This document shows, in pieces, positions 28,359 to 31,033 of a DNA stretch of 64,000 nucleotides. Within the stretch, counting starts at the first letter, position 1. Each line of letters opens with the position of its first letter. The position numbers and the translations under genes are program-made. Source of the DNA: Salegentibacter mishustinae (GTDB lineage Bacteria; Bacteroidota; Bacteroidia; Flavobacteriales; Flavobacteriaceae); NCBI RefSeq assembly GCF_002900095.1, contig NZ_LLKN01000002.1, positions 2,666,001-2,730,000 of the forward strand, given 5' to 3'. The notes beneath the pieces are model-generated. The model saw only the letters and a program-made list of their open reading frames with translations. It was not told where the DNA came from and did no database searches.

Positions 28359-29267
28359 TTATTGGTTAGCCTTAATTCTTTCCTTCGCTCTCTTTTTATG
28401 CCGTTCTGTAGCCAACAATGTATTTTTAAGCAACATAGAAACCGTCATTGGTCCTACCCCACCTGGAACAGGCGTAATATATGAAGCACGTTTGCTAACA
28501 TTATCAAAGTCTACATCACCTTTAATCACATAGCCTTTTTCAGCTTCATCATTAGGCACTCTGGTAATTCCAACGTCAATAATAACGGCGTCATCCTTGA
28601 TCATTTCCGCTTTCAGAAAATCTGGAATTCCAACTGCGATAATGATGATATCTGCCTGGGAAGTTATTTGTGTAATATTTTTAGTGAATTCGTGCGTTAA
28701 AGTTACGGTTGAGTTTCCGGGGAAACCACTTCTTCCCATCAAGATACTCATTGGTCTTCCTACAATATAACTTCTGCCAATCACAACGGTATGTTTTCCT
28801 TTGGTCGGGATATCATAACGCTCCAATAACTCTAAAATCCCAAAGGGAGTAGCGGGAATAAAAGACGTCATATCTAACGCCATTTTCCCAAAATTGGTAG
28901 GATGAAAACCGTCTACATCTTTATCGGGATCTACAGCATTTAATACTTTTTGAGTATCGATTTGTGGGGGTAATGGCAACTGAACAATAAATCCGTCTAT
29001 ATCGTCATTCTGATTTAGCTCTTCAATTTTATCAAGAAGCTCCAATTCACTTACCGTATTTGGCAATCTATAAAGAGAAGATTCAAAACCAACGCGCTTA
29101 CAGGATTTTACTTTTGCGTTTACATAAGTTAAGCTCGCACCGTCGTTCCCAACAATAATTGCAGCTAAGTGAGGTACTTTTTCTCCTCTTTTTTTAATCT
29201 TTTCAACCTCAGCAGCAATCTCGTTTTTAATATCGTTGCTGGTTTTTTTTCCGTCTAAAATGATCAT
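28359..29267 (-). CDS. folD: Bifunctional methylenetetrahydrofolate dehydrogenase/cyclohydrolase FolD
   Basis: Cytoplasmic enzyme of one-carbon metabolism interconverting 5,10-methylene- and 10-formyl-tetrahydrofolate. 302 residues from the ATG at 29267. The frame extends to 29318 but that part reads through the inverted repeat of the neighbouring cassette and is not family-like. Seen: YVNAKVKSCKRVG near 50 with the catalytic Tyr/Lys, IVQLPLPPQI, DVDGFHPTNFGKM, VVIGRSYIVGRPM and PGGVGPMTVSML. Only 4 bp separate the start codon from the cassette. Confidence 0.96.
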   Translation of the reverse strand: MIILDGKKTSNDIKNEIAAEVEKIKKRGEKVPHLAAIIVGNDGASLTYVNAKVKSCKRVGFESSLYRLPNTVSELELLDKIEELNQNDDIDGFIVQLPLPPQIDTQKVLNAVDPDKDVDGFHPTNFGKMALDMTSFIPATPFGILELLERYDIPTKGKHTVVIGRSYIVGRPMSILMGRSGFPGNSTVTLTHEFTKNITQITSQADIIIIAVGIPDFLKAEMIKDDAVIIDVGITRVPNDEAEKGYVIKGDVDFDNVSKRASYITPVPGGVGPMTVSMLLKNTLLATERHKKRAKERIKANQ

Positions 29268-29271
29268 CTCA

Positions 29272-29302
29272 GTTAGCAGTACTTTAGTTGGCAGATAGCA
29301 GT
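29272..29302. repeat. Left inverted repeat of the four-helix-bundle cassette
   Basis: 31 bp that match the right copy (29674-29704) in inverted orientation at 24 of 31 positions. Three of the seven differences become G-U pairs in RNA, so 27 of 31 positions could pair. On the minus strand it is built of degenerate 7-mers of the form ACTGnnA. It overlaps the cassette gene's stop codon by one base. Confidence 0.8.
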
Positions 29303-29670
29303 CAGATTTTGACTCCAAATTTACCAGGGTTATTTTTCATATAATTTATCAATTTCCCAACCTCTTCACTTTGAGATTGTAAAATTATCTTACGTTCTGC
29401 CGGCAAATATTCACAGGCTTCTGCAAAGTCAAGCCATAATTGAGTTTCAGCATTCTCAGAATCAGCATCTGTGAGTTTATTCGTAAAATATTTAGGGTAT
29501 TCCCTTTTTCGATAAGCCTCAGCGATGGCAGAACAAACACTTCTTGAAGATCGAATAATTTGATTGCTTAAAGCAAATCTTTCTTCAACAGGAAAAGTCT
29601 TTGAAAGTTTAAAAACTTCCATAGCAAGATCAAAAGCTTTCTGATATGCGTATAAGGTTTTAAAACTCAT
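29302..29670 (-). CDS. Four-helix-bundle protein, 23S rRNA intervening-sequence (S23) family
   Basis: 122 residues from the ATG at 29670; a longer frame from TTG at 29703 runs through the flanking repeat and is not favoured. Seen: opening SFKTLYAYQKAFDLAMEVFK, the family core FPVEERFALSNQIIRSS near 26-42, AIAEAYRKR near 49, and further amphipathic helices. Relatives are encoded inside 23S rRNA intervening sequences and include the Avd partners of diversity-generating retroelements; the role of stand-alone copies is unknown. The gene is tightly bracketed by 31-bp inverted repeats between ffh and folD. Confidence 0.9.
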   Translation of the reverse strand: MSFKTLYAYQKAFDLAMEVFKLSKTFPVEERFALSNQIIRSSRSVCSAIAEAYRKREYPKYFTNKLTDADSENAETQLWLDFAEACEYLPAERKIILQSQSEEVGKLINYMKNNPGKFGVKI

Positions 29671-29673
29671 TTT

Positions 29674-29704
29674 ACTGTTAACTGCCGACTGAAACACTGC
29701 CAAC
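29674..29704. repeat. Right inverted repeat of the four-helix-bundle cassette
   Basis: 31 bp ending one base before the ffh stop codon (29705-29707). It reads as 7-mers ACTGTTA, ACTGCCG, ACTGAAA, then one extra C, then ACTGCCA. The left copy has its single extra base at the same place. Together the two copies bound a 433-bp unit. Confidence 0.8.
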
Positions 29705-31033
29705 TTACTTCATTCCCTTCATCATCTGCATCATCTTCTGGCCGCCGCCACCTTGCATCATCTTCATCATTTTCCCCATTTGGTTGAATTGCTTCAACAA
29801 CTGGTTAACTTCCTGTACCGATGTTCCCGAACCTTTACTAATTCGTTTCTTACGGCTTGAATTTATAACCTTTGGATTGCTTCGTTCTTCAGGGGTCATC
29901 GAGTGGATTATTGCTTCAATTCCTTTAAAGGCATCATCATCAATATCTACATCTTTCAGCATTTTTCCGGCTCCCGGAATCATTCCCATAAGGTCTTTCA
30001 TAGACCCCATTTTCTTAATTTGCTGCAATTGCTTCAGGAAATCATCAAAACCAAACTGGTTTTTAGCAATTTTCTTCTGAAGCTTTCTTGCTTCTTCTTC
30101 ATCGTATTGTTCCTGGGCACGTTCTACAAGAGACACAACATCTCCCATTCCAAGAATTCTATCGGCCATACGTTCTGGATAGAACACATCCAGTGCGTCC
30201 ATTTTCTCACCGGTACCAATAAACTTAATAGGCTTATTAACTACAGATTTAATTGATATCGCTGCACCACCACGTGTATCACCATCTAATTTTGTAAGGA
30301 TTACCCCGTCAAAATTTAATCTTTCATTAAAGGTTTTTGCTGTATTCACTGCATCCTGACCCGTCATAGAATCTACCACGAATAAAGTCTCGTGTGGTTG
30401 GATTGCTTCGTGAATATTCGATATCTCGGTCATCATCGCTTCATCCACAGCTAAACGACCAGCGGTATCTATAATAACTACATTATGACCATTTTGCTTA
30501 GCATATGCAATTGCGGCTTTAGAAATAGCTACAGGATCCTGGTTGCCTTCATCTGAAAACACCTCAACACCAACCTGCTCACCAACTACGTGCAACTGGT
30601 TGATAGCCGCAGGACGATACACATCACACGCAACCAAAAGTGGTTTTTTGGTCTTTTTAGTTTTTAGAAAATTAGCAAGTTTTCCGGAAAAAGTTGTTTT
30701 ACCACTACCCTGTAATCCAGACATAAGAATAACAGAAGGATCTCCTGAAAGATTAATTCCTTCGGCTTCCCCACCCATTAACTGGGTTAGTTCGTCTTTC
30801 ACCAATTTCACCATCATCTGGCCCGGCTTCAGGGCGGTTAAAACGTCCTGTCCCAAAGCCTTTTTCTTCACAACATTGGTAAAGTCTTTGGCTATTTTAT
30901 AGTTCACATCGGCATCCACCAAAGCACGTCTCACTTCTTTTAAAGTTTCGGCAACGTTTACCTCGGTAATTTGCCCGTGGCCTTTTAAAACGTGTAAGGC
31001 ATTATCTAACTTATCACTTAAACTATCAAACAT
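29705..31033 (-). CDS. ffh: Signal recognition particle protein Ffh
   Basis: SRP54 GTPase that binds signal sequences and delivers ribosomes to FtsY at the membrane. 442 residues from an ATG. Seen: N domain, G1 GLQGSGKTTFSGKLA near 107, RPAAINQL, DTAGRL near 190, TKLDGDTRGG near 247, and a Met-rich M domain ending in repeated MMKMMQGGGGQKMMQMM-like segments. Length is normal. The 31-bp cassette repeat begins right after its stop. Confidence 0.97.
   Translation of the reverse strand: MFDSLSDKLDNALHVLKGHGQITEVNVAETLKEVRRALVDADVNYKIAKDFTNVVKKKALGQDVLTALKPGQMMVKLVKDELTQLMGGEAEGINLSGDPSVILMSGLQGSGKTTFSGKLANFLKTKKTKKPLLVACDVYRPAAINQLHVVGEQVGVEVFSDEGNQDPVAISKAAIAYAKQNGHNVVIIDTAGRLAVDEAMMTEISNIHEAIQPHETLFVVDSMTGQDAVNTAKTFNERLNFDGVILTKLDGDTRGGAAISIKSVVNKPIKFIGTGEKMDALDVFYPERMADRILGMGDVVSLVERAQEQYDEEEARKLQKKIAKNQFGFDDFLKQLQQIKKMGSMKDLMGMIPGAGKMLKDVDIDDDAFKGIEAIIHSMTPEERSNPKVINSSRKKRISKGSGTSVQEVNQLLKQFNQMGKMMKMMQGGGGQKMMQMMKGMK

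Follow-up and report, generated by a model that had tools for sequence, protein, structure and literature searches.

Inverted heptamer arrays around 23S rRNA IVP-family genes: a small cassette at the ffh–folD junction of Salegentibacter mishustinae and its relatives in other bacteria

Described systems and the ffh–folD locus

The intervening sequences (IVSs) of 23S rRNA, which hold an open reading frame of the PF05635 family (23S_rRNA_IVP, here IVP) between complementary ends, are the described system to which the element reported here is most readily compared. For Coxiella, part of PMC4990558 describes GACAGAT heptamers before the S23p frame of the IVS, in a copy number varying between strains, and a solved Xanthomonas campestris protein of the IVP family as a homopentamer; the solved structure 2gsc is XCC0516. 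The family is also named in sections of open-access work on cas loci (PMC3936711), on DGRs (PMC10053308) and on rRNA insertions of candidate phyla. Within the cas study, 18 IVP genes are placed inside cas loci, one of them between cmr3 and cmr2. Repeats of the same unit length have been reported in parts of PMC4679880 and PMC4692102 from cyanobacteria including Nostoc, from Xanthomonas (GGGAATC) and from Beggiatoaceae (TAACTGA; MacGregor 2015, PMC4679880), and those of Xanthomonas also form inverted pairs, with 70 and 75 convergent pairs given in PMC4692102. The terms "four helix" and "S23" have no occurrences in the main texts of PMC4679880 and PMC4692102, so that IVP genes are unnamed there, and the GGGAATC pairs were published, in the sections covered, without a link to such genes. 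Likewise, the portions considered of PMC5524665 and PMC5896051 make no connection between IVPs and heptamers, and we found no description of inverted heptamer arrays around IVP genes in the open-access literature searched.

The window, by which we mean the whole analysed stretch of 64,000 nucleotides from Salegentibacter mishustinae, contains an IVP gene at positions 29302-29670 of the minus strand, an open frame for a four-helix-bundle protein of 122 residues. A first, sequence-only reading of this DNA had assigned the product to the protein family of 23S rRNA intervening sequences, and the assignment held: the protein reached 97.3 bits with the PF05635 profile, whose cut-off is 33.8, and 46 with the bAvd profile PF22296 (cut-off 40). 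These were the only Pfam profiles above their cut-offs, and no transposase, nuclease or Y1 transposase domain was found in the protein. The co-directional operon neighbours, all on one strand with the IVP gene, are those named before, as Pfam domains confirmed: ffh upstream (29705-31033, minus strand; SRP54 domains) and folD downstream (28359-29267, minus strand; THF_DHG_CYH domains).

Two arms enclose the gene in a cassette of ~430 bp. Read in gene sense, the 5' arm, GTTGGCAGTGTTTCAGTCGGCAGTTAACAGT (29674-29704, minus strand), shows CAGT each 7 nt with a single 8-nt step, and the 3' arm (29272-29302, plus strand) is its inverted copy with ACTG and the same longer step, its final base being common to the IVP stop codon. 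The arms are identical at 24 of 31 positions, and three of the seven differences become G-U in the RNA of either strand, which leaves 27 of 31 positions pairable. The best 31-mer identity within the 50-nt flanks was 24, far beyond the 300 shuffled versions (mean 14.9, maximum 20, none reaching 24). The repeats and their heptameric make-up with one extra base at the same place are thus as first described, and so is the distance of four bases between the downstream arm and the folD start codon (29265-29267); the upstream arm, said to begin one base after the ffh stop codon, in fact directly adjoins it (29705-29707). A gapped local alignment of the 110-nt flanks scored 19.2, a tie with the best of 67 other genes of the window, and the period score of 0.39 fell below the cut-off of 0.45 because the register is interrupted. 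Taken alone, the window locus is moderate evidence with a weak period, and it draws its strength from the family.

The complementary ends close a stem around the IVP frame, as in 23S rRNA IVSs, and the RNA of the cassette is predicted to fold accordingly (z -3.75). Because the IVP and the closed ends are common to both, we group the cassette with the IVS kind. Location, arrays and spread differ: the present cassettes lie between protein genes of operons, here ffh and folD, outside any rRNA gene, with both arms built as 7-nt arrays, each cassette having its own word, and with several cassettes in one genome. Five short rRNA motif patterns had no match in the loci gathered by then. The DGR accessory protein Avd is a related four-helix-bundle protein, as the PF22296 match and part of PMC10053308 indicate, but the window IVP adjoins ffh and folD, and these immediate neighbours include no reverse transcriptase.

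Heptamer arrays around IVP genes

A profile search detected eight PF05635 genes in the genome of the window. By reading, each of the eight is flanked on its two sides by imperfect 7-nt (once 8-nt) arrays that face opposite ways and have a word of their own; the weakest case is L008, for which 11.6% of mispairs attain the arm score. Inverted 7-nt arrays do recur at other genes of the family, as the first reading had proposed to test, with ACTGnnn being one word among many. A universal ACTGnnn motif is rejected, since words differ per cassette and strict ACTG arrays occur at one of the eight genes.

Among the matches listed, PF05635 genes were present in 42 of 60 genomes searched, and a control search of 14 well-known genomes gave none. 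From among the matches listed we assembled a relatives set of 97 loci, reduced to 96 by dropping L030, whose frame was not readable. Autocorrelation over the 70 nt next to these 96 genes peaked at lags 7, 14 and 21, with values of 0.43, 0.39 and 0.38 upstream and 0.45, 0.42 and 0.38 downstream, compared with 0.27-0.32 at other lags; regions 330-400 nt from the same genes had no such peaks. The upstream flank aligned with the reverse-complemented downstream flank of the same gene at a mean local score of 17.9, as against 10.5 for downstream flanks of other clusters and 11.8 for the own downstream flank read directly. This own-arm score lay above 95% of mispairs in 67 of the 96 loci and, by median, in 29 of 44 protein clusters; the direct match beat the inverted one in eight of the 96, strongly in L071, L074 and L082.

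The same organization extended to named contigs, for which the best 80 loci among the matches listed were scanned. Forty-eight are titled Bacteroidota and 32 otherwise (Clostridia, Acidobacteria, Planctomycetes, gammaproteobacteria, SAR324, Nitrospirae, candidate phyla and others, one being "uncultured bacterium"), many of the non-Bacteroidota loci being metagenome bins whose individual taxon labels may be wrong. Peaks at lags 7, 14 and 21 appeared on both sides in both groups. In an initial comparison with background genes, which used a cruder measure of period and gave a weaker result, the arm score exceeded 99% of the background in 25 of 78 IVP genes and the period did so in 11 of 78, both exceeding 95% in 16 of 78 compared with 4 of 390. 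With a cut-off (period 0.45) that was fixed after seeing this cruder test, inverted 7/8-nt arms were found at 39 of the 73 query genes that could be scored out of 80, and at 5 of 386 non-adjacent other genes (Fisher p 9e-31); the remaining 34 of the 73 fail this stricter cut-off. In these loci three of four further IVP genes also passed, as did 6 of 137 genes adjoining an IVP gene, and the same cut-off was passed by 66 of the 96 relatives and by none of 68 scored window genes, the window's own IVP gene included. One of the five non-IVP genes with inverted 7/8-nt arms (L165, 3379-3705) encodes a 108-residue protein, which we take to resemble RNase P protein.

These counts bear on the notion that ordinary, slippage-prone 7-nt repeats are scattered in genomes and that IVP genes lie among them by chance. 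Heptamer repeats are indeed reported from the bacteria named above, but such scattering would explain neither 39 of 73 against 5 of 386 nor why, in most pairs, the second arm is an inverted array of the cassette's own word, so that we regard this notion, already disfavoured, as highly improbable.

Genomes of 12 non-Bacteroidota loci yielded 30 loci: 12 were query cassettes already scored (six passing), and of the 18 new ones 10 passed the arm cut-off; several IVP copies within one such genome bear different words. In a Xanthomonadaceae-like family, an IVP gene was present in 20 of 59 genomes, and 7 of 21 loci passed, with arrays visible by eye in most and alignments extending into GC-rich flanks. 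The 1.1-Mb genome G071 (locus L155, titled Candidatus Buchananbacteria) has 12 PF05635 matches, ten of them above the cut-off. Together, we consider it practically certain that the heptamer-flanked IVP cassette is real and general.

Arms at a score of at least 13 were present in 152 of 175 cassettes, the other 23 having no such arms or containing N. The best period was 7 in 117 and 8 in 24 of the 152 armed cassettes, in which the inward-reading strand is C-poor (9.7%). Array length, counted on 122 flanks per side (44 clusters of relatives plus the named loci, unclustered), peaked at 4-5 units; among the arrays exceeding shuffles, this length was found in 35 of 66 on the upstream side and in 44 of 61 on the downstream side. 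In 66 words of period 7 with a clear array (one per protein cluster for relatives, named loci unclustered), AG was the best-kept pair of positions, occurring in 77% (expected 47%), and TAG occurred in 56% (expected 17%). Stop codons in all frames were considered as a reason for periods of 7 or 8 and rarely 6 or 9, and rejected: TAA was not enriched (0.21 compared with 0.25), TGA stood at 0.15, TAG alone was clearly above expectation, and GC-rich words were often stop-free by reading.

The cassettes lie in sense within operons. For the 145 of 152 armed cassettes with neighbours within 400 nt, both neighbours lay on the IVP strand in 136 (94%). In the named set this held for 55 of 69 IVP genes, compared with 66 of 117 other small genes (p 0.0014) and 230 of 404 of all other genes (p 0.0003). 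The fit is also tight, the median spacing being -4 nt between the stop codon of the upstream gene and the arm and 0 nt between the arm and the start codon of the downstream gene. Such sense placement could reflect an RNA step or a promoterless gene needing read-through. At L005, L221, L222 and L224 the frame of an RND transporter enters the cassette array, and its C terminus gains residues such as SQLKVKSEKLKVIN.

Presence, decay and transfer

Comparing the ffh–folD junction in 15 species of the genus, as had been proposed as a check, revealed ten full cassettes, two decayed ones in which the gene end and the right arm remain, and three species without, so that the cassette is not universal at this site. 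In the cassette-less L041/G004, L045/G003 and L049/G007 the junction is filled by a ~95-nt repeat, which at its clearest reads CCCCTAACCCC...GGTCGGGAGGGG. Presence, decay and absence were seen at four other junctions of the genus as well. Of 14 species compared at a CoA-transferase junction, four have the gene, at least three hold pieces of arms without it, and three are compact there; at L270, L272, L274, L275 and L280 the hairpin repeat ATATAGATTTCCGCCTTCGCGGAAATGACAAA or a near form occupies the cassette position of this junction. The L008 junction carries an IVP cassette in 6 of 14 species. The junction between an ABC-protein and a methyltransferase gene carries an IVP gene in 9 of 14 species, of differing types and with differing words (GTTGTGA or GTGTTTG). 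In L203 (G014), an (ACAAACC)n array lies inside the downstream methyltransferase gene, ~1050-1115 bases past the ABC-protein stop; it matches the arm word at the same junction, where the IVP appears, by reading, to be chimera-like, of two types.

These patterns weigh on a reading in which the gene is not mobile and regulates itself, the IVP binding the leader array to control its own translation and the downstream array controlling the next gene. TRAP is a ring that wraps RNA in a comparable manner, and the 4-5 units with their kept AG would suit such wrapping; the arrays also lie near the start codons of the IVP gene (median 16 nt before it) and of the next gene. Against it stand the presence, loss and remnants at junctions, the different IVPs and words that one junction holds in different species, the inverted orientation of the downstream array and the existence of pairs devoid of an ORF. 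We therefore judge a regulatory, non-mobile gene to be quite improbable.

The arms themselves go with the gene into other neighbourhoods. Within Flavobacteriia, the similarity of arms between sites with unrelated flanks was 10.0-10.6 for IVPs less than 50% identical and 11.1 at 50-60% identity, rising to 13.6 at 60-70% (n=56) and 17.2 above 70% (n=8), so that strong similarity between sites is confined to IVPs at least 60% identical. Between a Nitrospirae bin and a Chitinophagaceae assembly (the pair L121/L132), the gene is 76% identical over 254 nt, and both copies have AGGCAnn arms amid different neighbours; mis-binning could account for this cross-phylum pair.

The junctions and genomes compared revealed neither a transposition event nor a target duplication nor a mobilising enzyme. 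They also held no recent empty site that was clean and exactly bordered, the cassette-less junctions being rebuilt or occupied by other repeats. A candidate for recent transposition in G005, with four equal-score IVP hits on contigs C5, C7 and C32, was dismissed: the three copies compared are identical across a whole 1.7 kb, which indicates a larger duplication or an assembly artefact and not movement of the cassette. Altogether, the pattern suggests that a kind of small mobile element has been overlooked. That the cassette is a mobile, selfish unit we consider likely; the fuller statement, a small selfish cassette of ~430 bp with one IVP gene between inward-facing inverted arrays, is the best explanation and probably the right one.

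RNA pairing, a possible mechanism and ORF-less pairs

The sequence-only reading had spoken of a small mobile or RNA-processed element. A small element outside rRNA is what the junctions, the arrays at other family members and the arms travelling with the gene support; RNA processing as the reason for the complementarity fared worse. In that account the arms are kept complementary as a stem of the operon mRNA, which RNase III would cut to separate the IVP message. Processing is known for rRNA IVSs (described in part of PMC4990558), and the predicted closed stem of the window and the prevalence of sense orientation agree with it. So does the order of units, which corresponds between the arms beyond their shared consensus (17.5 compared with 16.2, Wilcoxon 2e-8, n=98); this version is the one relied on, an earlier one with 118 alignment-picked arms (21.0 compared with 17.2) being biased by selection. 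This slight correspondence could be explained by copying or by weak pairing. Selected pairing should favour G-U over A-C differences, yet across 152 cassettes 299 differences were G-U-compatible and 336 were A-C (p 0.15), and transitions made up only one third; selection for an RNA stem is thus not supported by these counts. Moreover, the ORF-less inward pairs described below carry no IVP message. On balance, complementarity maintained for RNA processing appears unlikely, and an RNA step as such is possible given the sense insertion in operons.

Returning to the selfish cassette, we envisage the following scheme. Each cassette comprises one IVP gene between inverted arrays, mostly of 4-5 imperfect 7-nt repeats, with a word specific to the cassette lineage. 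Insertion, or survival, would occur almost only in sense between co-transcribed genes, where the IVP would be made by read-through. The IVP ring, of five subunits in the relative 2gsc, may bind the array with roughly one 7-nt unit per subunit, and bound IVP could thereby label the termini of its cassette, and those of ORF-less derivatives, for a copying enzyme that the host or another element would supply. The 23S rRNA IVSs would then belong to this element family as its best-known branch. Reading of the 7-nt units by the ring, with action in trans, is a tentative proposal. Similarly tentative is a unification in which 23S rRNA IVSs, intergenic IVP genes and 7-nt arrays form one bacteria-wide class of mobile cassettes, whose ring would read the word, one unit per subunit with a cassette-specific word at each end, and cause its own units and ORF-less ones to be copied into operon junctions, in sense only and probably by an RNA-linked route. 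Such a class would join IVPs without known function, rRNA IVSs without known movement and 7-nt arrays without agreed explanation, offering a testable partner for each. It also advises caution in inferring function from IVP genes in operons: those in cas loci (in part of PMC3936711) may be cassettes of the present kind rather than CRISPR genes.

ORF-less pairs were found in a genome with the published Xanthomonas word. When 369 genomes from G064's class (gammaproteobacteria, judging by the locus title) were searched for (GGGAATC)3, a single one matched, G438, which we infer to be a Xanthomonas. G438 has exactly one PF05635 match, located behind a gene with a biotin-carboxyl-carrier domain and flanked by GGGAATC arrays; because the gene looks broken, covering profile positions 1-64 only, this IVP may be a relic. 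A 16-base form of the pattern had 79 hits in G438 at up to two mismatches (overlaps counted), compared with none for the reversed control. Among 19 other regions chosen from these hits, seven had inward GGGAATC pairs with at least three units per arm, and three more had shorter ones by reading; one region had a partner of another word, five a single array and three none at the cut-off. These small inverted ORF-less units dispersed beside a rare gene-bearing copy resemble REP/RAYT systems and MITEs, from which the cassettes differ in that Pfam identifies no nuclease or transposase domain in the IVP and in that the ends are arrays and not single hairpins or TIRs. Several of the arms keep the variant-unit order of the gene-bearing cassette. 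The inner ends matched weakly on the left (4.8 of 8 compared with 3.7 expected) and are partly shared on the right, with 8.3 of 12 compared with 6.1 expected and p<0.03 in five of ten.
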